Below, piece by piece: positions 30,005 to 50,877 of a stretch of 64,000 bases of DNA (the first letter of the stretch is position 1; each line of letters begins with the position of its first letter). The notes under the pieces were generated by a model, which saw only the letters and a program-made list of their open reading frames with translations, was not told the DNA's origin and did not search any database. The DNA is taken from contig NZ_JAFIMU010000007.1 in assembly GCF_017302985.1 (NCBI RefSeq), positions 124,001 through 188,000 on the forward strand. The letters run 5' to 3'. A program made the position numbers and the translations under genes. The stretch comes from Corallococcus macrosporus (lineage in GTDB: Bacteria; Myxococcota; Myxococcia; Myxococcales; Myxococcaceae).

Positions 30005-30511
30005 ATGTACTTCGAGACCTTTTCCCAGATGAAGAAGCAGCTCGGGCAGTTGGGCAAGTGGCTGGAGGCGGGCGCTGCCCATGCCAAGGCGAAGTCCTTC
30101 GACCCCAACCTCTACCTGGGCTTCCGGCTGGCGCCGGATCAGCTCCCGTTCGTCAAGCAGGTGCAGATCGCCTGTGACGCCGCGAAGCTGGGGGCCTCGC
30201 GGCTGACCGGCAAGCCCGCGCCGTCGCACGCGGACACGGAGCAGACGCTGGAGGAGCTCGGCGCCCGCGTCCGGTCCACCATCGAGTACCTGGACACGCT
30301 CACGGCGAAGGACTTCGAGGGCGCGGCCACCCGCGTCATCACCAATCCCCGGTGGGAGGGCAAGGTGATGAGCGGCGCGGACAACTTCCAGGAGCACATC
30401 ATCCCGAACTTCTACTTCCACCTCACCCACACGTACGCGCTGCTGCGGCACAACGGCGTCAACCTGGGCAAGGCGGACTACCTGGGGACGCTGAGCCTTC
30501 GCGCGCCGTGA
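30005..30511 (+). CDS. DUF1993 family protein
   Basis: 168 residues, all-helical. The DUF1993 pattern is clear: SQMKKQLGQLGKWLEAG, RLAPDQLPFVKQVQIACDAAK, TLEELGARVRSTIEYLDTL, and NFYFHLTHTYALLRHNGVNLGKADYLG at the end. This family belongs to the DinB-like four-helix group; no function is established. The gene meets the oxidosqualene cyclase gene tail to tail with a 53-base antisense overlap. ATG 30005 is preferred to upstream in-frame codons because homology begins there and a -10-like box is 8 bases upstream. Confidence 0.85.
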   Translation: MYFETFSQMKKQLGQLGKWLEAGAAHAKAKSFDPNLYLGFRLAPDQLPFVKQVQIACDAAKLGASRLTGKPAPSHADTEQTLEELGARVRSTIEYLDTLTAKDFEGAATRVITNPRWEGKVMSGADNFQEHIIPNFYFHLTHTYALLRHNGVNLGKADYLGTLSLRAP

Positions 30512-32423
30512 GGCCTGGGCCTGTCGCTTCCGCGAGCGACAGCGCCCACAGCGGGAAGATGCGCAGGTAGGCGTCGTAGTGGATGGCGCAGGTGCGGTTG
30601 AACACGCCGGCCAGGGGCTCCGGGGGCCACTGGCCGTGCGGCCCCTGGGTCGCGCGCAGCCACGCCACGCCCCTTCGTGTGGCATCGCTGTCCCGCTCGC
30701 CCGCCGCCACCAGTGCCAGCACGGCCCAGGACGTCGTCACCGCGTGGCCGGTGCGCCCCTCCACCCAGCGGCGCTCGCGGCAGGACTGGAGGGTCTCACT
30801 CCAGGAGCCGTCCTCGCGCTGGTGGGCCCCGAGGAACGTGACCGCCTTGCGCAGCGCGGGGTCCCTGGCACTCGCGCCCGCGGCCACCAGTCCGGTAACG
30901 CCGAACCAGGTGCCATAGCTGAAGCACACGCCCCACGAACCCTCCCAGCTTCCGTCCGCACGCTGCTGGCGGCGCAGGAAGTCCGCGCCCCGCGCGATGG
31001 CCCGTCCCACTGGCGCCTCCGGCCACGCGTTCCGCCACGCGGCCAGCGCCTGCACGCAGGCCGACGTGCACTCCACGTAGCTGGGGTCCACCATGATGCT
31101 GGCGAACACGTCCGAGGGATTGAACCGCTCCAGCCAGCGCGGGCCCCGCTGCCGCTCGTAGGTGGCCCAGCCTCCGTCCCGGTTCTGCAAGGACAGGATG
31201 AATGCCACCGCCTGCTCCAGGCGCTCGTGCGGCACGCGGTTGAGCCTGAGCGGCTGCAACAACAGACACGCCTTCAGTGCCTCCGCCGTGCAATCGCTGA
31301 TGGGCCAGCCGTGCGCGCGCGTGCTGAAGGGCCACCCTCCCCGGCTCGGGTGCCGGTGGTGGCGCGCGGCGTCTGGCGAATCCTCCAGCACCTGCTGCGC
31401 TTCCAGGAAGCGGCCCGCGCGCTCCAGCGTGTCCCGCGCTCCAGCCGCCTCGCCGGACGCCACCAGCGCCTGCACCGCGAAGGCGGTGTCCCAGAGCTGC
31501 GAGGAGTTGTAGCCGTTGAACGTGATGCCTTCCCGGGTGTGTTGGAGGTAGTCCGGCAGGCGCTCCAGGTGGGCGCGCACCTCGGGGCCGTCCGGCCGCG
31601 CCACGTGCCACACCACCATGTCGAGGACCTTGTTGATGGGCCCGATGCAGATGGCGTGCGTCGCCGTGTCCTCCCCGCGAATCAACGCCAGGGACTCGTC
31701 CAGCGCGCGGGCCCGCAGCCGCTTCGAGTGGAAGCGCTCATACCACCCCAGCACCCGGTGCACGGCGCGCAGCCCCAGGCCGTGGGGCGTGTACGCATCC
31801 GTCCCGGCCACCCGGCCGCGCGCCGCCTTCCAGTCCACGTCCGCGTAGGGCTGGGGATACAGCTCGCGCCGCAGCTCGGCCAGCAGCGGCGTTTCCCTGG
31901 CGCGGACCCGGCGGCCATAGAGCCAGCCCATGGGCAGGTACACCATGCGGCAGTGACACCAGAGCCGCGACGGATGGAACGGCAGCGCTCGCGGCAGCAG
32001 CCAGAGCTCCGGCGGCACGGGCGCCAGGCCCGCGTAGTCGTAGAGCCCCAGCAGGGCGAGGACGAACTTCCCCCAGGACGCGCTGCCCCGCGGGCCGCCC
32101 CGGGGAAGGAACCACGCCCGCGCGCGGAGCAGGTCCGCGTCCTCCGCGCCGACGCCCAGCAGCCGCTGCGCGACGTAGTTGAGCACCGTCGTGAAGACGA
32201 GGCTGGGCGACTCCACGTCCAGCCCCCAGCCGCCGTCCGCGTTCTGGCGCGCGCGCATGTACGCGATGAGCCCGTCCCTCACGCGCGCGTCCGGCGAGCG
32301 GCCCATCACGTACAGCCCGGCCACGTACACCGGGGCCAGGAAGAGCGGGCCGCTGTAGTCCCCCTTCCAGGAGCCGTCCGCCTCCTGCGTCCGGGCCAGC
32401 ACGTCGCGCGCGTGGCGAAGCAT
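30459..32423 (-). CDS. osc: Oxidosqualene cyclase, predicted cycloartenol-synthase type
   Basis: 654 residues. It cyclises 2,3-oxidosqualene to a protosterol. QW motifs recur (QNADGGWG 60-67, QNRDGGWATY, QQRADGSWEGSWG, QREDGSW). The catalytic acid lies in SDCTAE (D377, C378), the oxidosqualene-cyclase motif, and not in the DxDD of squalene-hopene cyclases. VECTSA (C452) matches the second active-site Cys. Residues that separate cycloartenol from lanosterol synthases in plants and fungi are Y305 (GYNSSQLWDT), H371 and I375 (HGWPISD), all of the cycloartenol kind. ATG 32423 was chosen because it overlaps the squalene synthase stop as TGATG; an ATG 42 bases upstream is possible but lies inside that gene. 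Confidence 0.92.
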   Translation of the reverse strand: MLRHARDVLARTQEADGSWKGDYSGPLFLAPVYVAGLYVMGRSPDARVRDGLIAYMRARQNADGGWGLDVESPSLVFTTVLNYVAQRLLGVGAEDADLLRARAWFLPRGGPRGSASWGKFVLALLGLYDYAGLAPVPPELWLLPRALPFHPSRLWCHCRMVYLPMGWLYGRRVRARETPLLAELRRELYPQPYADVDWKAARGRVAGTDAYTPHGLGLRAVHRVLGWYERFHSKRLRARALDESLALIRGEDTATHAICIGPINKVLDMVVWHVARPDGPEVRAHLERLPDYLQHTREGITFNGYNSSQLWDTAFAVQALVASGEAAGARDTLERAGRFLEAQQVLEDSPDAARHHRHPSRGGWPFSTRAHGWPISDCTAEALKACLLLQPLRLNRVPHERLEQAVAFILSLQNRDGGWATYERQRGPRWLERFNPSDVFASIMVDPSYVECTSACVQALAAWRNAWPEAPVGRAIARGADFLRRQQRADGSWEGSWGVCFSYGTWFGVTGLVAAGASARDPALRKAVTFLGAHQREDGSWSETLQSCRERRWVEGRTGHAVTTSWAVLALVAAGERDSDATRRGVAWLRATQGPHGQWPPEPLAGVFNRTCAIHYDAYLRIFPLWALSLAEATGPGLTAREGSASPGSPPCPG

Positions 32424-33469
32424 CAGAGCCGGGCCTCCATGCCGTGCCGGGGCGCTCGCGAGCACCAGGCGTAGAGCGCCCGCAGCGCCTCATCCGAGTC
32501 GACGTTCTCCTGCGTGAGCCGCATCAGCGCCTCCACCGTCTCCCGGCGGATCTTCACCGGCTCCGGTTCGAGCACCGCGGGGTTGCCCTCCAGCGCGTCC
32601 AGCGTCGCGGCCGCGAAGAAGAGCGGGTAGAGGCAGAACAGCCGCAGGCCGGGCTCCTCGCGCGGAAGGGCCAGGGAGTATTCGAGCGCGACCTCCAGCT
32701 CACCGCGCGCCACCGCCACCAGCTCGTCCATCAGCGCCACCGCCCGCGAGCGCAGGGACGGCAGGGCCAGCGTGGCGGGCGTGAGGCCATGCGCGGCCAT
32801 GCGGTCCCTGGGCAGCCAGCAACTGCCCCGGTCCAGGTCCTCGCGCACGTCCTTCAGGATGTTGGTGAGCTGCAGGGCGCGGCCAAAGGCAGGCGCCCGC
32901 GACGTCAGGCCCTCCTGGCGCCAGGCCACCCGGGGTGAGCTGGCGATGAAGAGCCCGGTCAGCATCTCGCCCACGACGCCGGCCACGTAATAGCAATACC
33001 TGAACGTCGCCTGGAGGTCGGGCAGCCCCATCACCTGCCCGCTCCCGCCGTGCATCCGCTGCATCTGGTTCATCCCGCCGGTCATCGTGCGCACGCACCG
33101 GGCGATGGGCGGGTGGACCCAGGTGGGAAGCGAGGCCAGGGTCTCGAGCACCGTCAGGGTCTCCAGCACCAGCTCGGCCTCCGGGGCGGGCGCCTCGTCC
33201 CGCAGGGCGAGCCGCGCCCTCCGCGCGAAGGAACGGGCCTGGGCCTCCCAGCCCGGCCCCAATGACACCAGGGCGCCCAGCTCGTCGAGCAGCGCGGATT
33301 GGGATGGCGCGGGGGACTCGTCCTCCAGCGTGTCCGCGATGCGGCACAGCAGGTAGGCCACCGTGACCGCGAGGTCCAGGGGCTCGGGCAGCAACGGGAT
33401 GTTGAGCGCGAACGTCCGGGAAACCCGGGGCAGTTGCGTGCGACAGAATGACGCTCCCTGCTCTTTCAT
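32423..33469 (-). CDS. sqs: Squalene/phytoene synthase family, predicted squalene synthase
   Basis: 348 residues, all-helical trans-isoprenyl diphosphate synthase family. The two Asp-rich motifs are DTLED (46-50) and NILKDVREDLDRG (from N203, with D207 and D211), and the YCYYVAGVVGEMLTGLF helix is typical. The family condenses two farnesyl (squalene) or two geranylgeranyl (phytoene) diphosphates. The neighbouring oxidosqualene cyclase and squalene epoxidase favour squalene, but sequence alone does not prove it. AGGAGG lies 5 bases before the ATG. The gene is first in a two-gene unit with the cyclase and diverges from the epoxidase gene across 48 bases, so the promoters must be shared or overlapping. 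Confidence 0.88.
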   Translation of the reverse strand: MKEQGASFCRTQLPRVSRTFALNIPLLPEPLDLAVTVAYLLCRIADTLEDESPAPSQSALLDELGALVSLGPGWEAQARSFARRARLALRDEAPAPEAELVLETLTVLETLASLPTWVHPPIARCVRTMTGGMNQMQRMHGGSGQVMGLPDLQATFRYCYYVAGVVGEMLTGLFIASSPRVAWRQEGLTSRAPAFGRALQLTNILKDVREDLDRGSCWLPRDRMAAHGLTPATLALPSLRSRAVALMDELVAVARGELEVALEYSLALPREEPGLRLFCLYPLFFAAATLDALEGNPAVLEPEPVKIRRETVEALMRLTQENVDSDEALRALYAWCSRAPRHGMEARL

Positions 33470-33517
33470 GCCTGCCTCCTCTGCGTGCGATGCCGCGATT
33501 CAATGGCTAAGTAGTCA

Positions 33518-35056
33518 ATGCCAGACATGGTGTCTGGGAACCCGAGCGGAGGCCACGTGGAGGACGCCGAGGTGGTGATAGCCGGAGGTGGGCCCGCGGG
33601 CTGCACGGTGGCGGCGGCGCTCGTCGAGCTGGGGTTGTCCGTCCTGCTGCTGGACGCGGGCGTGGACCGGCACAAACAGCTCGCGGGCGAGCTCCTGCAC
33701 CCCGCCGGCATCCGGGACCTGCGCGCGCTGGGCTTCGGGGACGTCGTGGAGGGCTGGAAGGCCCAGCCCGTGCGCGGCTTCGCGGTGCGCTTCCATGCCC
33801 CTGCCCGCACCCTCGTCCTGCCCTACGGCCGGGGTGCCACGGGGCTGTCGCTGGAGCACGCCACGCTCACGGAGCCCCTGCTGGAGGCGGTGTCGCGGCG
33901 GCGCGGCGTCACCGTGCGCACCCGGGCCCGCGTGACGGCGGTGGAGCACAACGGCGAGCACGGCGTGCGCCTGCGCTACACGCACGCGGGCGCCGAGCAC
34001 ACCGTGCGCGCCCGGCTGCTCGTGGCCGCGGACGGACGCGCGTCGCCGGTGCGGCGGATGCTGGGCATCGCCGAGCACCACACGCGCCTGTCCACCATGC
34101 TGGGAGTGACGGTGGACAGCGCCTGCCTGACCCACCCGGACCACGGCCACCAGTTCGTGGGCGGCGCCGTGCACGCGCTGGCCTACGGCATCCAGCCCGG
34201 CGTGGCGCGCGTGATGGTGGACCTGCCCCTGGGCAGCACCGTCCAGACGCTGCGGGACAGGCCGGAGCTGCTGCTCGCCCTGCCCTCCAGTCTGAGGCAC
34301 GCCGTCTGGCGGGCGCTGGAGCAACGGCCCGCCGTGCGCATGGCGTCCAACGACGACTGGCTGGCGGAGACCGTCTGGATGGGCAGCGCCGTGCTCGTCG
34401 GCGACGCCGCGGCGTGCTGCCACCCGCTCACCGCGAGCGGCATGGCGTCCTGCTTCCACGACGCCCGCGCCCTCCAGGAATCGCTGGAGCGCCACCCGGG
34501 CCACATCGCCCGCGCGCTGGAGCACTACGCGCACGCGCGGCGTCCCGCCCAGCGCACGCGCGTCGCGCTCGCGTCCGCGCTCTACAGCGCCTTCGCCGGA
34601 CAGGACGAGGGCATGCGGGCCCTGCGCATGGGCCTGTTGCACTACTGGGAGCACAGCCCTCGCGGCGCGCGGGCCTCCATGGCGCTGCTCTCCTCCGAGG
34701 AGCCCCGCATGCGGGTGATGGCCCGCGAGTACCTGCGCGTCATCGCGCATGCCTTCGCCGCGATGCTCTCGCCCAGCGGCCCCGGAGGCAGCCTCCGGTC
34801 CGCCGGGCCTCTGTTGCGCTCGGCCGGGCCGCCCCTGCGGGGCACGGTGGCGAGCGCGGTGGAACAGGTGGGGAGCTGGCTGCATCGTCGCGTCCGCCGT
34901 CCCGTCTACACGCTGGCCCGCGCCGGCTGGGTTTCACCGAGGCGCGCCTTCGCGTCCAACCGGTACCCCCGGCCGCGCCAGTCCACCTGCCGCGACAGCC
35001 GCGCGGACAGCGCCACGCCGGCCCCCAGCAGCGGAAGGACCGCCGGCACCCAGTAG
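33518..35056 (+). CDS. sqmo: FAD-dependent squalene monooxygenase (squalene epoxidase)-like
   Basis: 512 residues. It should epoxidise squalene to 2,3-oxidosqualene using FAD, O2 and an electron donor. The FAD site is GGGPAG (23-28) followed by the acidic end of the second strand (LLLDAG). GELLHPAGIRDLRALG corresponds to the GExLQPGG segment of squalene epoxidases, LVAADGR is the second nucleotide motif, and GDAAACCHPLTASGM (295-309) matches the GDA--HPLTGGGM signature. The last 45 residues are low-complexity and lie over the end of the opposing glycosyltransferase gene. ATG 33518 and ATG 33527 are both possible starts. The companion donor reductase is not obvious in the window. Confidence 0.88.
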   Translation: MPDMVSGNPSGGHVEDAEVVIAGGGPAGCTVAAALVELGLSVLLLDAGVDRHKQLAGELLHPAGIRDLRALGFGDVVEGWKAQPVRGFAVRFHAPARTLVLPYGRGATGLSLEHATLTEPLLEAVSRRRGVTVRTRARVTAVEHNGEHGVRLRYTHAGAEHTVRARLLVAADGRASPVRRMLGIAEHHTRLSTMLGVTVDSACLTHPDHGHQFVGGAVHALAYGIQPGVARVMVDLPLGSTVQTLRDRPELLLALPSSLRHAVWRALEQRPAVRMASNDDWLAETVWMGSAVLVGDAAACCHPLTASGMASCFHDARALQESLERHPGHIARALEHYAHARRPAQRTRVALASALYSAFAGQDEGMRALRMGLLHYWEHSPRGARASMALLSSEEPRMRVMAREYLRVIAHAFAAMLSPSGPGGSLRSAGPLLRSAGPPLRGTVASAVEQVGSWLHRRVRRPVYTLARAGWVSPRRAFASNRYPRPRQSTCRDSRADSATPAPSSGRTAGTQ

Positions 35057-36096
35057 TGCCGGGGCGCCACGTCCGGCCCGTGGCAGGCCCGCTGGAGCCG
35101 CAGCTGGCTCCACACGCAGAAGCCGATGGGCACCGCCGCCAGGGCCGCCGTCTCCCAGGCCCTCCGCGCCACCGCCGCCGCCAGGCTGCCCCAGGACAGC
35201 CAGCTCACCCCGCCGCGCACCCAGTGCGTCCGGGCGAAGGCCCCCGGCAGCCCCGCCTCCGAGAAGAGGATCCACCGCCGGAAGATGCGCAGGAAGGCGC
35301 CCAGCTCCAGGTGCCCCGTGACGACGCGCAGGGGCGCGTGCACGACGCGGTTCTTCCACCCGGCCTCGTGCAGCCGGCGCCCCAGGTACATGTCATCCAC
35401 GAACTGCCCGGCCGCGCAGCCCACGCCCCCGATGGCTGCGAGCGCCTCACGGCGGAAGACCATCAACTGCCCCATGATGAAGGGCAGCGCGCCATCCGGC
35501 TTTGCCGCGCACGCGACCGACGCGCCGTACCACGCGTTCACCAGCAGCCCGTAGCCCACGTCCCCCGCGAGGGGCGCGTCCGCCGCCGCGTAGATGGGCG
35601 CGAACGTGGCGCCCGTCCGGCCATCCTCCAGGAGGGCCCCCACCAGCGCCGTGAGCACGCCGGGCGTGGGCCGCGTGTCTGAATCGCTGAAGGCCAGGAG
35701 CTCACACCGGGAGCGGGCCACGCCCACCTGCATCGCGTTGAGCTTGCCGGTCATCCCTTCCGGAGGCTCGCCCGCGACCACCAGCTCCACCCGCTTCGCG
35801 CGCGTGGAGCGCGCGGCCACCTCCTCGCGGGTGGGGAGGAACGCCGGGTCCTCCTCGCTGTCGAAGACGAAGAGCACCTCCCACTCGCCGGGATAGTCCA
35901 GGTCCAGCAGCGCGCGCACGTTCGCTCGCGCGTCCACGTCCAGGCCGCGGATGGGACGGATGACCGTCACGGAGGGCGGCTCGAAGCGCCTCGAAGGTGG
36001 CACCGGGCGCCGTCGCAGGCCGGCCATCAATTCCAGGTGGCCCTGCACGAGCACGCCCAGCGCCGCCGCCGTCCACCCCAGGTTCCGCGCGTTCAT
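34906..36096 (-). CDS. Ceramide glucosyltransferase-like GT family 21/2 enzyme (HpnI-like)
   Basis: 396 residues. A hydrophobic N-terminal segment (WTAAALGVLVQGHLELMAG) anchors a GT-A domain with SVTVIRPIRGLD, D79 (VLFVFDSEEDPA), GKLNAM, the DxD motif D138-S-D140 and the acid pair D234-D235 (GQFVDDMYLG). RIFRRW resembles the (Q/R)xxRW motif but is spaced one residue wider. Two or three membrane segments end the protein. Relatives transfer sugars to ceramide or act in hopanoid gene clusters (HpnI). Here the acceptor could be a sterol, ceramide or diacylglycerol. Its ATG overlaps the stop of the MMPL gene (ATGA). Confidence 0.85.
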   Translation of the reverse strand: MNARNLGWTAAALGVLVQGHLELMAGLRRRPVPPSRRFEPPSVTVIRPIRGLDVDARANVRALLDLDYPGEWEVLFVFDSEEDPAFLPTREEVAARSTRAKRVELVVAGEPPEGMTGKLNAMQVGVARSRCELLAFSDSDTRPTPGVLTALVGALLEDGRTGATFAPIYAAADAPLAGDVGYGLLVNAWYGASVACAAKPDGALPFIMGQLMVFRREALAAIGGVGCAAGQFVDDMYLGRRLHEAGWKNRVVHAPLRVVTGHLELGAFLRIFRRWILFSEAGLPGAFARTHWVRGGVSWLSWGSLAAAVARRAWETAALAAVPIGFCVWSQLRLQRACHGPDVAPRHYWVPAVLPLLGAGVALSARLSRQVDWRGRGYRLDAKARLGETQPARASV

Positions 36097-38375
36097 GGCC
36101 GCACCTCCGTGCCGCGAGGCCCTGGCGCCCGCGCGTGCGAGCGCCGCCAGTGGCCCGGCCCCCACCAGTTGAAGTCCCCCATCAGCCGCATCATCGCGGG
36201 GACGATGAGCACCCGGACCAGCGTCGCATCCAGCGCGACCGCGATGGCCATGCCCAGCCCCATCGCCTTCACCACCACCACCGACGCCAGCGTGAAGGCC
36301 GCGAACACCGCCACCATGATGGCCGCCGCGCTGGTGATGAGGCCGCCGGTGCGCTCCAGGCCTTCGGCCACCGCGTGGGTGTTGTCGCCCGTGCGCAGCC
36401 ACTCCTCGCGGATGCGGCTGAGCAGCAGCACCTCGTAGTCCATGGACAGGCCGAACAGCGCGCAGAACAGCAGGATGGGCAGCGACGGTTCGATGGGCCC
36501 GGGCTCGAAGCGCAGCAGCCGGTGCAGGTGGCCTTCCTGGAAGATGAACACCAGGGCCCCGAACGAACCGCACAGCGACAGCAGGTTCATCAGGAGCGCC
36601 TTCAACGGCAGCACCACCGAGCGCAGGAGCACGAAGAGGACGATGCACGTCATCCCCATCACGAACCCCACGGCCGCGGGCGTGTGCTGCTTCACGAAGG
36701 CCGCCGCGTCCACGTCCGTCGCGGTCTGCCCGCCCACCTGCCACCGGCCGTCCCCCACCGCGCGGTCCTCGCGCAGCGCGCGCACCAGGTTCCGGGCCTC
36801 GACGCTGCTGGGCGCCGAGGACGTCAGCACCTGCATCACCGCGACGTTGCCGGTGACGTACGCGGCGCGCGCGGCCTGGAGCTCCGGCGGAAGGAACTGG
36901 GGCGGAGCGGCGGCCATCCGTTGAACGGTCGCCCGGTCCATGCCGGGGACCAGGGTCACCGCGCTCTCCACGCCGAGCACCCCGGGCAGCGCGGCGATCC
37001 TCCGGCTGGCGTCATGAAGCGCGCCCGCGCGCTCCGGCGTGAGGGGTGTGCCGCCCGGGAACTCCACGGCCACCAGCACGCGGGTGGCGGCCTCGCGGGG
37101 AAACAGGCGGGCCAGGGTCTCCGCGCCCCGGCGGGCCTCGGTGCCCTCGGGCAGCGCCGTGATGTCCGTGGCCGCCAATTGCAGACGCCGGAACGGCAGC
37201 CCCATGGCCAGCAGCAGCGCCAGCGTCGGCAAGAGCACCCACCAGGGATGCCGCATCACCCAGGTGGCCAGCGCGTGCCAGCCCCCGCCGCGCCCCTCCG
37301 CGCGCGCGAAGGGCAGCCGCCCCCGGTCCACGCGAGGCCCCAGCCAGGCCAGGAGCGCGGGCAGCACGGTGAGCGCGAAGAGGACCGCGAAGGCCACCAC
37401 CAGGGCGCCCCCCAGCCCCATGGCGCTCAGGTACGAGCCCCGGAAGAACAGCAGGCCTCCCAGCCCCACCGTGACCGCCAGTCCGGAGAACGCCACCGCG
37501 CGCCCGGCGGTGTCCAGGGTGCGCGTCAGCGCCTGCTCCGTGGAGAGCCCGTGGGCAAGCTCCGCGCGGAAGCGGCTCACGATGAAGAGCGAGTAGTCGA
37601 TGGCCACGCCCAGCCCGATGAGCGACACCACGTTGAGCGTGTACTGGGCCATGTTCGTGACGTGCGACAACAGCAGCACGCCCGCCACGCCGCAGAGCAC
37701 CGCCAGCCCGCCCACCACCAGGGGCAGCATGGCCGCGACCACCGTGCGGAACACCCACAGCAACACGAGCAGCGCCAGCGGGAACGACAGCAACTCCGCG
37801 CGCAGCAGGTCGTGCTCCAGCAGTTCGTTGAGCGCGGCCAGGAAGGCCACCTTGCCGGTGAGCGTCGTCTGGAGGCCCGAGTCATCCAGCGCCGCGCGCA
37901 CGGCGGGGAACGCGGCGGTGGCCTCGCGCTCGCCGCCCTTGAGCCGCACCAGCGCCAGCAGGTCGTGGCCCGTCGGCGCCACGAAGCGGGCCCGGAAGGC
38001 CTCGGGCGCCCCGATGGGTGACACCACCGACGCGACCTCCGGCAGCCGCTGCACGCGCGACAGCGCGGACGTCACCGCCTGGGCGAAGCGCGGATCCTCC
38101 GTCGCCCAGGCGTCGTGGTGGAAGATGACCGCCAGGGTCTGGTCGTTGGACCCGGCGGCGGCGCCCCGCGCGAGCGACTCGGCCCGCGCGGCTTCGATGC
38201 CCTCGATGGTCCCGGTGGTGAGGTGCCCGCCCCGGAGCAGCGCCCACACCGCCGCGCCGAGGAGCAGGAGCGTGCCCACCAGCACCCGGCCCCGGTGCCG
38301 GAACACGCCCACCGCCAGCCGGGCGAACAGGGACGGCGCGCCCCCCGCTGATGAGTCGTCCCCCCGTGTCCCCAT
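36093..38375 (-). CDS. MMPL/RND family membrane transporter (HpnN/BstA-like by context)
   Basis: About 760 residues with the duplicated RND layout: one membrane helix, a periplasmic loop (about 40-190), five or six helices, then a second helix, loop (about 400-560) and five helices. The MMPL signatures GLGVAIDYSLFIVSRFRAEL and FGLSMDYEVLLLSRIREEW occur in the two halves. MMPL proteins move lipids across the envelope using the proton gradient. HpnN carries hopanoids and the RND protein BstA of Methylococcus carries sterols, so a sterol or glycolipid cargo is plausible here. ATG 38375 is preceded by GGAGGG; a GTG at 38408 in frame is the alternative. The gene is coupled to the glycosyltransferase. 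Confidence 0.87.
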   Translation of the reverse strand: MGTRGDDSSAGGAPSLFARLAVGVFRHRGRVLVGTLLLLGAAVWALLRGGHLTTGTIEGIEAARAESLARGAAAGSNDQTLAVIFHHDAWATEDPRFAQAVTSALSRVQRLPEVASVVSPIGAPEAFRARFVAPTGHDLLALVRLKGGEREATAAFPAVRAALDDSGLQTTLTGKVAFLAALNELLEHDLLRAELLSFPLALLVLLWVFRTVVAAMLPLVVGGLAVLCGVAGVLLLSHVTNMAQYTLNVVSLIGLGVAIDYSLFIVSRFRAELAHGLSTEQALTRTLDTAGRAVAFSGLAVTVGLGGLLFFRGSYLSAMGLGGALVVAFAVLFALTVLPALLAWLGPRVDRGRLPFARAEGRGGGWHALATWVMRHPWWVLLPTLALLLAMGLPFRRLQLAATDITALPEGTEARRGAETLARLFPREAATRVLVAVEFPGGTPLTPERAGALHDASRRIAALPGVLGVESAVTLVPGMDRATVQRMAAAPPQFLPPELQAARAAYVTGNVAVMQVLTSSAPSSVEARNLVRALREDRAVGDGRWQVGGQTATDVDAAAFVKQHTPAAVGFVMGMTCIVLFVLLRSVVLPLKALLMNLLSLCGSFGALVFIFQEGHLHRLLRFEPGPIEPSLPILLFCALFGLSMDYEVLLLSRIREEWLRTGDNTHAVAEGLERTGGLITSAAAIMVAVFAAFTLASVVVVKAMGLGMAIAVALDATLVRVLIVPAMMRLMGDFNWWGPGHWRRSHARAPGPRGTEVRP

Positions 38376-38569
38376 GCCCGCCCTCCGTTCGCTCGCCCCG
38401 CCGTGCACCCAGGAACTGGTGACGGGCGGAGCGCTTGGACAGGGGCTTCATCCCTTGGGGCCATGCGGGAGTGGACGGCACGGCCGCGCGCCTGCCCCTC
38501 CCTTCGGGCCTGGACCAGGATGGACTACTGGAAGGTCACCTTGCCCTCCCCATTTCCCAGAGGCTCAGG

Positions 38570-39529
38570 TCACTCCGGCACGGGCATGCGCACGCCCGCG
38601 AGCTTCCGCTCCTCCAGCACGGAGTGCAGCGCATGGATGCGTCCGTGCGCGTCCACGTCCACGCGAATCACGGTGTGCAGGGCCATGAGCGGGTCCTTCG
38701 CCGGAGGGTACACGGCGACGAAGGCGGGCAGTCCGTTGAGCATCCGGGCCTCCCACGCCACCGGAGCGCCACGCATCTCCATCAAGCGGCGGACGACGAG
38801 GACGACGCGCGGTGCCCCCACGATGGGCACCAGGGCCGCACGCACCTTGCCGCCTCCGTCCGAAAGGGCACGAGCATCGGAGGTCAGCAACGCCTCCGCG
38901 GCGGCGACGTCGCCCGTCATCATCGCCGCGAGGAACGCCTCCAACGCGGCCCGGGTGCGGGCCTGCAGCTCGCGCGTGGGCACGCAGCGGGACTGGTCAT
39001 ACGAGGCCATCGCCGCACGTGCGCGGTGGTGCACCACCTTCACGTTCGCTTCGCTCATGCGAAGCGCCTCGGCCACTTCCAGCACCGAGTAGTCAAAGAC
39101 ATCCCGCAGCAGCAGCACGGCCCGCTGCTTGGGCGACAGGGCCTCCAGCGCCAGCAGGAAGGCGAAGGAGACGCTCTCCAGCAACTCATAGCGCCCCTCC
39201 GTCGAGCCGCCACCGGGAAGCCGTGCCTCCGCCGAGGGAGGGACCTCCTCGTCGCCGGTCTCCACGGGCGAAGGCAGCCAGGGTCCGATGTAGCCCTCGC
39301 GCCGTCGCCGCCGCAGGTGGTCACGGGCCAGGTTCACCGCCACGCGGGTCAGCCAGGGCCGCAGGGTGTCCAGGCGCTCCGGGGGAGTCGCGAGCGCGCG
39401 AGCATAGACCTCCTGCACCAGGTCATCCGCGTCCGCCGCCACACCGGTCATCCGGTAGCAGAGCCCCCAGAGGAAGCGCTCATGCTCGCGTGCGGCCTGT
39501 CCCAGTGCCCCTCGCGCCTGTGAATCCAT
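38570..39529 (-). CDS. ECF41-family RNA polymerase sigma factor with SnoaL-like C-terminal domain
   Basis: 319 residues. Sigma region 2 (about 10-75: DADDLVQEVYARAL, RPWLTRVAVNLARDHLR), sigma region 4 (about 120-180: LSPKQRAVLLLRDVFDYSVLEVAEAL) and an NTF2/SnoaL-like extension (185-319). YIGPWLPSP (80-88) in the linker and DGGGK (224-228) in the extension are hallmarks of ECF41 sigma factors, whose C-terminal domain controls activity in place of an anti-sigma factor. ECF41 genes are usually beside a COE-type oxidoreductase or epimerase gene; none is adjacent. ATG 39529 was chosen by homology. It lies between the sterol block and a repeat-filled intergenic region. Confidence 0.9.
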   Translation of the reverse strand: MDSQARGALGQAAREHERFLWGLCYRMTGVAADADDLVQEVYARALATPPERLDTLRPWLTRVAVNLARDHLRRRRREGYIGPWLPSPVETGDEEVPPSAEARLPGGGSTEGRYELLESVSFAFLLALEALSPKQRAVLLLRDVFDYSVLEVAEALRMSEANVKVVHHRARAAMASYDQSRCVPTRELQARTRAALEAFLAAMMTGDVAAAEALLTSDARALSDGGGKVRAALVPIVGAPRVVLVVRRLMEMRGAPVAWEARMLNGLPAFVAVYPPAKDPLMALHTVIRVDVDAHGRIHALHSVLEERKLAGVRMPVPE

Positions 39530-39656
39530 CCCGTTCAAGCCTCCACCGCGCATTGGAAGGGAGCGCCCAGGCCCAGGCCCTCGGACATCCCTCCTGTCTT
39601 CACGAATGAGAAGGTGAGATCCCGATTGCAGCGCCCCGTCAACGGAGCACCGCACA

Positions 39657-40021: not shown

Positions 40022-41326
40022 TCAAGCTCCCGCTACGCGACGCTGTGGCGTCGCGATGCGTTGCAGCAGGGCGTGCTCCACGGCTTCGGCGCTTGCCAGG
40101 GACGCGTCCGCGAGCATTCCCTCCGCGCCCACCCAGTCACCTACGCGGTACAGCCCTCCGAGGTGCGGCACCTCCACGGCGGGACGCCCCGCGAGTCCAC
40201 CCTTGGCGGCCTGGGGCAGTCCGGCGCTGACGGTGAGTGACGGACGGAAGCGCCGCGCCACCAACTTCGCTCGCCAACCTGGCTGGAGCGCGTCCATCAC
40301 GGCTTCCAGTTCGGACTCGCGGCACTCCGTGTCCGCTCCGCCCAGGTACTTGGCCACGTGCACCATCGCGCCTCCTTCCGGCGCCAGCTTCGCGGAGGCC
40401 GAATGCACCGACGCGTACCAGGGCCCGTCCACCCCCAACGCGAAGAACGCATCCGGCCTCGGCAGCTCCGACAACCCAAGCTCCAGCGTCGCGGCGTGAA
40501 TGGGCACCGCCTCCCGCGCCTCCCGGGCCAGCGCCGCGTCCCCTGGCACGAGCGCCGCCACGTCCGCGGGACTGCCCGCCAACACCACCGCGTCCGCGCC
40601 TCGCACCGTGCCGTCCGCGAGCCGTACGCCTTCGACCTTCGTGCTCCCTTCCTGGAGGACGACGGACTCCACCCGCGTGGACAGCTCCAGCCGGACTCCG
40701 GCCTCTCGCCCCAGTTGCTCCACCGCGTCCACCAGGGTGCTCCAGCCACCGTCCACGTACAGCACGTTCGCCGCGGTCGCGGCCTGGAGCTGTCTCACCG
40801 CCGCCTCCGCGCTGAGGGCTTCCAGGTCCGCGCAGTACGTCGCCACGCGCACCAGCGCCGCGATGAGCGCCTGACTGTCCCTTCGTGCCAGGCGCGTCTC
40901 CAGCCACGCCCGCGTCGACAGGGGCCCCAGCGGCCCCGTGTCGATTCGCGCCAGCCCCGCCAGCAGCTTCGCCACCTCCAGCTTCCCGGCGAGCGACAGC
41001 ACGTCCGTCGTCATGAGCGTCACCGGCCCGCGCGGCAGCGTGTGCAGCCGGCCCGCTCGCAGCGCGTGGGAGCCCGTTCCCACCGGCACACCGCCCTGGG
41101 GCTTCACGCCCAGGCGGCCCAGCACCCGCAGCGCCGCGCCCGCCCGGTACAGGGCATGCGGCCCCAGGTTGAAGCGGAAGCCCTCCACCTCCGTCGTCCG
41201 CGCCCGCCCGCCCAGGGACTTCGAGCGTTCGTACAGCGTCACCTCGCAGCCGCCGCGCGCCAGCAACGCCGCCGCCGTGAGCCCGCCCAGCCCTCCTCCC
41301 ACCACGGCCACCTTCATCGCCTGCAT
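40022..41326 (-). CDS. Phytoene-desaturase-like FAD-dependent oxidoreductase
   Basis: 434 residues. The Rossmann FAD motif VAVVGGGLGGLTAAALLARGG opens the protein when its two halves are read together, followed by the SLGGRARTTEVEGF segment and, at the C terminus, GLYRVGDWVGAEGMLADASLASAEAVEHAL, the second FAD motif of the carotenoid desaturase/amine oxidase family. Substrates in the family include carotenoids, squalene precursors (HpnE) and protoporphyrinogen. Its position near the sterol block invites a link but it lies 1.6 kb beyond the MMPL gene with a sigma factor between. ATG 41326 (MQAMKV) and ATG 41317 (MKV) are both near a GGAGG; the former is used here. Confidence 0.8.
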   Translation of the reverse strand: MQAMKVAVVGGGLGGLTAAALLARGGCEVTLYERSKSLGGRARTTEVEGFRFNLGPHALYRAGAALRVLGRLGVKPQGGVPVGTGSHALRAGRLHTLPRGPVTLMTTDVLSLAGKLEVAKLLAGLARIDTGPLGPLSTRAWLETRLARRDSQALIAALVRVATYCADLEALSAEAAVRQLQAATAANVLYVDGGWSTLVDAVEQLGREAGVRLELSTRVESVVLQEGSTKVEGVRLADGTVRGADAVVLAGSPADVAALVPGDAALAREAREAVPIHAATLELGLSELPRPDAFFALGVDGPWYASVHSASAKLAPEGGAMVHVAKYLGGADTECRESELEAVMDALQPGWRAKLVARRFRPSLTVSAGLPQAAKGGLAGRPAVEVPHLGGLYRVGDWVGAEGMLADASLASAEAVEHALLQRIATPQRRVAGA

Positions 41327-41415
41327 GTCCGTCCTCCGTCCCGGCGCCCGGCGCATTCCGGGCATCCGACGGCCTCCACGAAAGAGGACGCCAAAAGGTT
41401 ACAGCGCGGGTTGCA

Positions 41416-49159: not shown

Positions 49160-49765
49160 ATGATCTCCGCCGAGGTGTGGATGTTGTTCCTGGGCTACAC
49201 GGTGCCCATGGTCGTGAGCCCCGGGCCGGGCAACACGGTGCTCGCCACCGCCGGAGGGCGCTTCGGCGTCCGGGGCACGCTGCCGTTCTGGATGGGCTTC
49301 GAGGTGGCCAACGTCGCGCTGTGCCTCCTCTACGGCATCGGCCTGGGACGCGTGCTCCAGGGGCTTCCAGCGCTGCACCAGGTCCTGCGCTGGGGCAGCG
49401 TCGTGTACCTGCTCTACCTCGCGTGGGGCTTCTTCCGCGCCTCGGCCGCTTCCGGTGAGGCGACCGACGCGCCCGCGCGCCTCGGGTTCGTGGAGGGGCT
49501 GCTCGCGGTGGCGCTCAACCCGAAGATCCACTCGATGGTGCTGGTGATGTTCTCCCAGTTCCTGGACCCTTCGCGCGGGATGCTCTCGCAGACGGCGCAG
49601 CTCACCGTGGCGTTCCTCGCCGTCTGCGTGGCGTGCCACTTCCCGTGGATCTACGGCGGCAAGCTCATCCTGGGACGCTTCCGCTCCGAGCGCGCCATGC
49701 GCATCCAGGGCTGGACCTTCGGCGCCTGCATGGTCGCCGTCGCGGCCTACGTGGCCTTCGCCTGA
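49160..49765 (+). CDS. LysE/RhtB family amino-acid exporter
   Basis: 201 residues with about six membrane segments. The family signature near the N terminus is PGPGNTVLATAGGRFGVRG, and NPKIHSMVLVMFSQF and CHFPWIYGGKLILGRF match later conserved positions. It should export an amino acid or derivative from the cytoplasm. AGGTG lies 6 bases before ATG 49160; an ATG ten codons upstream is less likely. The divergent GcvA-like LysR gene is the probable regulator. Confidence 0.9.
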   Translation: MISAEVWMLFLGYTVPMVVSPGPGNTVLATAGGRFGVRGTLPFWMGFEVANVALCLLYGIGLGRVLQGLPALHQVLRWGSVVYLLYLAWGFFRASAASGEATDAPARLGFVEGLLAVALNPKIHSMVLVMFSQFLDPSRGMLSQTAQLTVAFLAVCVACHFPWIYGGKLILGRFRSERAMRIQGWTFGACMVAVAAYVAFA

Positions 49766-49848
49766 CACCCAGCTTGCCGAATCCGGCCGTTCCTTCGCGC
49801 CCGGCTCGCGGACAAACTCCACCGCATGAACATGAAGACGAGGCGGCG

Positions 49849-50877
49849 ATGAGCACGGTCCTGGTCACCGGCGGGTCTGGCTTCATTGGCAGTCATTGCA
49901 TCGTGCAGCTGCTGGAGGCGGGCCATCAGGTGCGCACCACGGTGCGGAGCCTGAAGCGCGAGGGCGAGGTGCGCGCCATGCTCAAGGAGGGCGGCGTGGA
50001 TCCGGGCTCCCGCCTGTCCTTCGCCGCGGCGGACCTGGAGCAGGACGCGGGCTGGGCGGAGGCGGTAGCGGGCTGCGACTTCGTGCTGCACGTGGCGTCC
50101 CCCTTCCCTCCCGGTGTCCCCAGGCACGAGGACGAGCTGATCATCCCCGCGCGGGATGGAGCGCTCCGCGTGCTGCGTGCCTCGCGCGACGCGGGCGTCA
50201 AGCGCGTGGTGCTCACGTCCTCGTTCGCGGCCATCGGCTACGGACATCCGCAAGACAAGACGCAGTTCACCGAGGCAGATTGGACGGATCCGCGAGGGCC
50301 CGGCGTCGCCGCGTATCAGAAGTCGAAGACGCTGGCGGAGCGCGCGGCCTGGGACTTCATCGCCCGTGAAGGCGGGGCGCTGGAGCTGTCCGCCATCAAC
50401 CCGGTGGGCGTGTTCGGTCCCGTCCTCGGGCCGGACTACTCCAGCTCCATCATGCTGCTGAAGCGGCTGCTGGACGGCGCCATGCCCGCCGTTCCCCGGC
50501 TCTACTTCGGCGTCGTCGGCGTGCGCGACGTCGCGGACCTGCACCTGCGCGCGATGACGCACCCGGCGGCCCGGGGAGAGCGCTTCCTCGCCGTCGCGGG
50601 CGACTTCCTGGCGCTCATCGACATGGCGCGGATCCTCCGCGCTCAACTGGGGGACGTGGCCCGGAAGGTCCCGGCGCGGCAGCTTCCGGACTGGGTGGTG
50701 CGGCTCGCGGCGCTGTGGACGCCGGTGGCGCGGCAGACCCTTCCGGAGCTGGGCAAGGTGAAGAACGGCTCCAACGAGAAGGCGCGGCGCGTGCTCGGCT
50801 GGGCGCCTCGGTCCAACGCGGAGTGCCTGGTCGCCACCGTGGAGAGCCTTCAGCGGCTGGGCTTGCTGAAGGGCTGA
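49849..50877 (+). CDS. NAD(P)-dependent epimerase/reductase of the extended SDR family
   Basis: 342 residues. VLVTGGSGFIGSHCIVQLLEAGH is the extended-SDR nucleotide motif when read in two parts. VLHVASPFPPG, VVLTSSFAAIGYG (catalytic Ser region) and YQKSKTLAERAAW (YxxxK) match the dihydroflavonol-reductase/aldehyde-reductase subgroup. It probably reduces a carbonyl substrate with NADPH. ATG 49849 has a modest GAGG upstream. It starts 83 bases after the LysE gene on the same strand, but cotranscription is not certain. Confidence 0.9.
   Translation: MSTVLVTGGSGFIGSHCIVQLLEAGHQVRTTVRSLKREGEVRAMLKEGGVDPGSRLSFAAADLEQDAGWAEAVAGCDFVLHVASPFPPGVPRHEDELIIPARDGALRVLRASRDAGVKRVVLTSSFAAIGYGHPQDKTQFTEADWTDPRGPGVAAYQKSKTLAERAAWDFIAREGGALELSAINPVGVFGPVLGPDYSSSIMLLKRLLDGAMPAVPRLYFGVVGVRDVADLHLRAMTHPAARGERFLAVAGDFLALIDMARILRAQLGDVARKVPARQLPDWVVRLAALWTPVARQTLPELGKVKNGSNEKARRVLGWAPRSNAECLVATVESLQRLGLLKG

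Follow-up and report, generated by a model that had tools for sequence, protein, structure and literature searches.

Organization of the cyclase locus

The window, a stretch of 64,000 nucleotides from Corallococcus macrosporus, carries on its minus strand a gene for an oxidosqualene cyclase of 654 aa, predicted to be a cycloartenol synthase (positions 30459-32423; ATG at 32423, stop ending at 30459). The sequence-only reading had placed the cyclase at these coordinates, which match an open frame, and had given no strand. Directly upstream, the gene for a squalene synthase-type prenyltransferase (SQS; 32423-33469, minus strand, 348 aa; PF00494, 166.7 bits) overlaps it, with the SQS stop and the cyclase ATG sharing the sequence TGATG. 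Divergent from the SQS gene across 48 bp is that for squalene epoxidase (SE; 33518-35056, plus strand), whose product alone in the genome matches PF08491 at E <= 0.001. An open frame on the minus strand at 33515-34885, a candidate for the epoxidase by position, has no family match and was rejected in favor of the plus-strand gene.

The minus strand also encodes a GT21/HpnI-like glycosyltransferase (GT) of 396 aa (34906-36096) and an MMPL-family (MmpL3/HpnN-like) RND transporter of 771 aa (36093-38408; PF03176, 262.7 bits), the gene for the latter overlapping the GT start by ATGA. The GT exceeds the Pfam gathering score for GT21/PF13506 (78.1 vs 21.7 bits), and its motifs DSD, GQFVDDMY and FRRW are invariant in all 12 aligned proteins (the window's and 11 relatives). 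Its only solved relative is ceramide glucosyltransferase, at E 0.1, and an AlphaFold model built from 9 close sequences was unusable (mean pLDDT 40.7). The best solved relative of the transporter is MmpL3; its score against the MmpL3 family lies below the cut-off (NF052608, 309.1 vs 1400 bits).

HpnI, a hopanoid glycosyltransferase, and HpnN, a hopanoid RND transporter, act on polycyclic triterpenoids. The window's GT and MMPL proteins belong to the same superfamilies, but both fall below the respective cut-offs (113.5 vs 310 bits for HpnI in NCBIfam; 66.8 vs 751.85 bits for HpnN, TIGR03480), and no hopene cyclase was found in the genome, where the profile matched the oxidosqualene cyclase and one 23.6-bit sequence, in a search in which no control scored above the cut-off either. 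A search of the genome for the ERG24 family likewise gave no match, as did its controls.

Other genes lie farther out. Beyond the MMPL gene, the minus-strand frames at 38570-39655 and 40022-41365 encode a sigma factor of the ECF type and a flavin amine oxidase resembling HpnE (86.8 bits against a cut-off of 283). The same pair directly follows the cyclase at another locus (L153:11989-14293, plus strand), so that its side of the cluster differs from species to species. A gene at 49633-50877 on the plus strand, some 11 kb from the MMPL gene, encodes an HpnA-like protein of the epimerase/3beta-HSD family (117 bits against a cut-off of 367.65; 72.1 bits against the SdmB cut-off of 600).

Estimates of dN/dS are low throughout: 0.22-0.34 for the cyclase (9 comparisons with chosen relatives), 0.17-0.41 for the epoxidase and 0.28-0.45 for SQS (9 chosen relatives), and 0.20-0.42 for the GT and 0.21-0.33 for the MMPL protein (8 relatives, the contig of L060 being too short). 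These ranges imply that the cluster is being kept.

The cyclase and its active site

The protein is a 2,3-oxidosqualene cyclase. It scores 887.6 bits against NCBIfam TIGR03463, above the cut-off of 851, and the match is thus not due to chance. The nearest solved protein in a phmmer search is human lanosterol synthase (1w6k). The AlphaFold model (mean pLDDT 90.6) has as its best PDB match human oxidosqualene cyclase with lanosterol (TM 0.94, rmsd 1.5, 45% identity). Fold and catalytic residues are common to the two enzymes, which differ in that the human protein has a longer N-terminus and Thr381, Cys449 and Val453 where the window cyclase has Tyr, His and Ile. Of the named cyclases among the best 80 of 255 relatives, the nearest come from Corallococcus, with that of C. 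exercitus 92% identical, and a cyclase is present in 16 of 16 genomes searched of the window's genus.

The sequence-only reading had aligned the motifs of the cyclase with what are presumably residues 410, 477, 481 and 483 in the numbering of plant cycloartenol synthase; the columns were compared here by way of human lanosterol synthase. Counted from the ATG, GYNSSQLWDT spans residues 304-313 (Y305) and HGWPISD residues 371-377 (H371, I375, D377), with C378 next. In the phmmer alignment with 1w6k, counted by hand, these residues fall on the columns expected of them: Y305 (codon 31509-31511, minus strand, as are all of these) on T381, H371 (31311-31313) on C449, I375 (31299-31301) on V453, and D377 and C378 (31290-31295) on D455 and C456, which we take to be the catalytic acid and its neighbor. 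The same five columns are in register in a profile alignment. Further pocket residues, also counted by hand, agree with the human enzyme in position: H157, F366, Y422 and C452 occupy the columns of human H232, F444, Y503 and C533, and W497, F608 and Y619 those of W581, F696 and Y707. The catalytic Asp-Cys and the pocket residues of a 2,3-oxidosqualene cyclase are therefore present. Because these residues lie at the human columns and the model superposes on the human enzyme, the cyclase looks intact.

In human numbering, the lanosterol set is given as T381/C,Q449/V453 and the cycloartenol set as Y381/H449/I453 (PMC4919349, section 14). The window cyclase has the Ile at 453 that PMC4919349 ties to cycloartenol (I375), and also the His at 449 and the Tyr at 381 (H371, Y305).

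Residues that discriminate among bacterial cyclases

Among eukaryotic enzymes the argument from tyrosine, which separates cycloartenol synthases (Tyr) from lanosterol synthases (Thr), holds. Its value in bacteria was examined in a survey of 139 loci, 137 with a cyclase, which yielded 106 distinct proteins after removal of duplicates, the window's included. The survey is skewed to close relatives, being drawn from the best 80 of 255 relatives and from a search of Myxococcota only at E 1e-100, and its lanosterol-type reference is a single Methylococcaceae MAG (L139, YNV) rather than a named, proven producer. The triplets at 305/371/375 (n=106) were YHI in 90, YQV in 7, AHV, YNV and EQV in 2 each, and YNT, FHI and YQI in 1 each.

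Histidine is found in 91 of the 92 cyclases with Ile and in 2 of the 14 without it. Tyrosine, present in 91/92 of the former, also occurs in 10/14 of the Val/Thr enzymes, and therefore does not separate the classes. The sequence-only reading had offered this tyrosine as a mark of cycloartenol synthesis, a use that stands for eukaryotes and fails in bacteria, where Tyr is not diagnostic and it is His that goes with Ile. In PMC4919349 (section 14) the signal was reduced to position 453 alone, and every organism tested there obeyed the Ile/Val rule, which is based on 11 strains tested in that study plus earlier ones.

The residues were also followed on a quick tree, computed without a mixture model from 105 rows with the three diagnostic columns removed; the window's duplicate and one short sequence (L058) were left out. 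The minimum number of changes is 8 for the Ile column, 10 for the His column and 3 for the Tyr column. The tree supports 5 independent pairs, and on average the His column changes along with Ile in 4.7 of them and the Tyr column in 1.2. With 5 such pairs the His/Ile covariation is not significant (median p 0.0625) and is suggestive only.

A few cyclases of the survey have unusual active sites. Those of a gammaproteobacterial and a verrucomicrobial MAG (L091, L101) have the uncommon set EQV, with GWAVSD or GWAVTD. In a Nocardia sp. enzyme (L129:9001-10863), Phe occupies the Tyr column and the catalytic Asp is followed by Gly instead of Cys (ISDGTAEA); SE- and SQS-like frames are nearby. One Myxococcota cyclase (L044, from genome G165) reads Tyr, Asn and Thr at 305/371/375, and so has neither Ile nor Val.

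Clade and expected product

On the quick tree the window cyclase belongs to a starred clade whose 30 rows all come from its own family, the Myxococcaceae. This clade includes the enzyme of G096, a genome whose bacteriophytochrome matches PDB 6bap at 514 of 515 residues; 6bap is presumably a Stigmatella aurantiaca protein, and G096 was matched to Stigmatella on this basis. The next wider group, of 43 rows and with a support of 86, is drawn open and contains the row from G092, a genome encoding a protein identical over 361 residues to PDB 8pak, which is titled Cystobacter fuscus. Cycloartenol is listed for both C. fuscus and Stigmatella aurantiaca (PMC4919349, Table 3). The window cyclase thus groups with the enzyme of a cycloartenol producer through the G096 clade, and with that of G092 in the wider open group. 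Its identity to the G096 enzyme (L003) is 69%, and the two agree at the three diagnostic columns and in the sequence HGWPISDCTAE.

Taken together, the residues, the predicted fold, the clade, the neighboring genes and the purifying selection computed here indicate that the product of this gene is very probably a functional oxidosqualene cyclase belonging to the cycloartenol-synthase clade of the Myxococcaceae; from this we infer cycloartenol as the likely main product. The sequence-only prediction of cycloartenol therefore remains the best reading, on the strength of Ile, His and the clade with G096 and shorn of the argument from Tyr. Cycloartenol arises by protonation of the epoxide, formation of the protosteryl cation and loss of a C19 proton. 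In the window, the squalene synthase encoded by the overlapping gene would supply squalene, which the neighboring squalene epoxidase would convert to the epoxide; the cyclase would protonate this epoxide through Asp377 and fold it to the protosteryl cation, which, given Ile and His at the diagnostic columns, would lose the C19 proton to yield mainly cycloartenol.

This prediction is not new: the C. coralloides gene COCOR_01777 is designated Cas in Table 4 of PMC4919349, and section 7 of PMC12004948 makes a family-wide prediction of cycloartenol for the Myxococcaceae. The Myxococcaceae cycloartenol synthases of Table 4 (Stigmatella STAUR_5418, Cystobacter D187_003104, Corallococcus COCOR_01777) are of the same family and clade as the window's; the diagnostic residues recur in the matched genomes, SQS and SE genes are nearby, and the same product is predicted.

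The residue rule is not free of strain. Strains of C. fuscus were reported earlier with either lanosterol or cycloartenol (PMC4919349, section 11), which makes a simple rule harder to uphold for the Myxococcaceae, and for E. salina and P. pacifica Table 3 of that paper has both lanosterol and cycloartenol, where the text gives lanosterol rather than cycloartenol. Site-directed work cited in its section 14 found that several residues steer the product. This work and the lanosterol reports from C. fuscus speak for a cyclase that is mixed, or dominated by lanosterol or parkeol, because other residues override the Ile/His pair, yet such an enzyme is improbable here, given that all organisms tested in PMC4919349 obeyed the Ile/Val rule and that the window cyclase is so like the G096 enzyme, matched to a cycloartenol producer, in overall identity, shared columns and active-site motif.

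Association of the glycosyltransferase and transporter with the cyclase

Across 195 Myxococcota genomes, a cyclase was found in 56 (E 1e-100), the GT in 30 (E 1e-50) and the MMPL protein in 47 (E 1e-100). The cyclase is present in 28 of the 30 genomes with the GT and in 37 of the 42 with an MMPL protein above 500 bits, or 37 of 47 when five genomes with weaker matches (G012, G183-G186; about 37-40% identity) are counted. With the window's genus excluded, the GT occurs in 13 genomes with and 2 without a cyclase, and the MMPL protein in 21 with and 5 without. Fisher tests of the co-occurrence give tiny p values, which take no account of kinship or physical linkage and are given little weight here. 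The pattern within genera says more: in g6, g7 and g19, where only some species have a cyclase, the MMPL gene is found in exactly the cyclase-bearing species, as is the GT gene in g19. Within the window's genus the GT is present in 15/16 genomes, the exception being G080, whose assembly is split into about 1,240 contigs.

Linkage is partial and its geometry varies. Among 62 distinct cyclase loci with at least 5 kb on both sides, the MMPL gene lies within 7 kb in 22 and the GT gene in 14. The MMPL gene is upstream of the cyclase in Corallococcus and Myxococcus and directly downstream in g6 and g7. It is directly downstream in the genomes matched to Stigmatella, Cystobacter and their congeners with a cyclase (G094-G097, G090-G092), in which the E 1e-50 search found no GT.

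The precursor genes also differ in arrangement. SE and SQS occupy one open frame in G090-G092 (which include C. fuscus), unlike the separate genes of the window; in C. fuscus, SE and OSC are two locus tags apart according to PMC4919349. In the three cyclase-bearing genomes of g6, one of them C. fuscus, these frames (L034:2057-5647, plus; L035:7645-11235, minus; L036:8011-11874, minus) encode about 1,200-1,290 aa upstream of the cyclase, and where domains were scanned (L034, L036) they comprise an N-terminal SE, a middle part resembling a cyclase C-terminus (PF13243, 31-32 bits) and a C-terminal SQS, an apparent natural fusion.

Possible glycosylation and export, and the sterol-free phenotype

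Corallococcus coralloides, the nearest strain examined, yielded squalene and no sterol despite having epoxidase and cyclase (PMC4919349, section 11 and Table 3), and the Corallococcus of Bode 2003 is tabulated likewise. The statement of the sequence-only reading that cycloartenol would be the first sterol made finds no support there. The authors noted much squalene and suggested a lack of expression. A cluster that is silent, or that leaves Corallococcus cells at squalene although the cyclase could make cycloartenol, is an appreciable possibility, well short of even, and is compatible with the cyclase being a cycloartenol synthase. It sits uneasily with the retention of the cyclase in every genome of the genus searched and with the purifying selection on cyclase, epoxidase, GT and MMPL genes (dN/dS 0.17-0.42). 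The published protocol also bears on it: cell pellets were used, the supernatant was discarded, and extracts were acetylated or silylated, with no hydrolysis described (section 6), conditions under which a sterol that had been exported or conjugated might have gone unnoticed. Enhygromyxa is known to have conjugated sterols, and in Calothrix it initially took acid hydrolysis for any sterols to be seen (PMC10202945).

The genes beside the cyclase suggest what might have escaped such a protocol. A GT21/HpnI-like enzyme would add a sugar to cycloartenol, and an MmpL3-like transporter would move cycloartenol or a derivative towards the outer membrane. From linkage and co-occurrence, there is about an even chance that the MMPL protein exports the cyclase product or a derivative of it; that the GT glycosylates this product is, on the same grounds, rather unlikely. 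The genomes matched to the genera with free cycloartenol on record (Stigmatella, Cystobacter) lack the GT at the search cut-off, whereas Corallococcus, in which no free sterol was seen, has it in 15 of 16 genomes, a contrast which suggests that cycloartenol is glycosylated and exported but which, with three genera only, is a lead and not a test. The full proposal, that in Corallococcus and its nearest kin cycloartenol is glycosylated by the GT and exported by the MMPL protein, the end product being a glycoside displayed on the cell surface or released into the medium, is accordingly tentative, and on present grounds unlikely.

The GT and MMPL proteins may instead serve another lipid, such as ceramide, and neighbor the cyclase for unrelated reasons, a substantial possibility that falls a little short of even. 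Ceramide glucosyltransferase is the GT's sole solved relative and MmpL3 the transporter's best, and neither protein reaches the HpnI or HpnN cut-off. Half of the cyclase genomes (28/56) are without the GT and 19/56 are without the MMPL protein; in genus g4 five genomes have a cyclase and one has an MMPL gene, on another contig. Conversely, cyclase-free genomes carry homologues of the GT (G056, G008) and of the MMPL protein above 500 bits (G027, G056, G057, G058, G155), with G058, a member of g40, among the latter. As far as they were scanned, the surroundings in these genomes are unrelated and have no common partner, and no terpene or sterol gene was found among the 20 neighboring ORFs covered (the neighbors in G016 included). 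In G056 the GT and MMPL genes are adjacent (G056:C37, L140; 48% and 57% identity) with no cyclase in the genome, which indicates that the pair can exist without sterol synthesis. What counts against another lipid is the strength of the association, 28 genomes with vs 2 without a cyclase for the GT and 37 vs 5 for the MMPL protein, and the fact that the MMPL gene adjoins the cyclase in differing positions, upstream in Corallococcus and Myxococcus and downstream in g6 and g7.

There is a partial precedent for the proposed export of a cyclase product. In Methylococcus capsulatus, the BstA/BstB/BstC system likewise has an MMPL-family RND transporter encoded beside osc, a likeness drawn from its description; according to PMC10942540, this MMPL protein has a sterol-binding periplasmic domain. 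The window cluster differs from what is described there in that a GT is part of the run.

Meaning for sterol biology in the Myxococcaceae

Among the titles and abstracts listed in the literature search, whose scope did not extend to subscription papers such as Bode 2003, there was no report of a sterol glycosyltransferase beside a bacterial cyclase, of an MmpL-type transporter in Myxococcota sterol biology or of bacterial cycloartenol glucosides, and PMC4919349 was the only paper to combine Corallococcus and cycloartenol. Insight into bacterial sterol-transport proteins is still slight according to PMC12004948, and PMC10202945 states that an intact sterol conjugate has yet to be identified from a sterol-producing bacterium.

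The cyclase itself is ordinary, one more member of its family with a prediction already in print, and it is the cluster that is of interest. The GT and the exporter largely come and go with the cyclase, making both sterol transport and modification of cycloartenol directly testable, and they could account for the failure to see sterols in a genus whose pathway is intact and under selection. If the proposal is true, the cluster would constitute a bacterial pathway for de novo synthesis of a steryl glycoside and would explain the sterol-free appearance of Corallococcus in free-lipid extracts. It would also correct the published inference that Myxococcaceae leave cycloartenol unmodified (PMC12004948, section 7).
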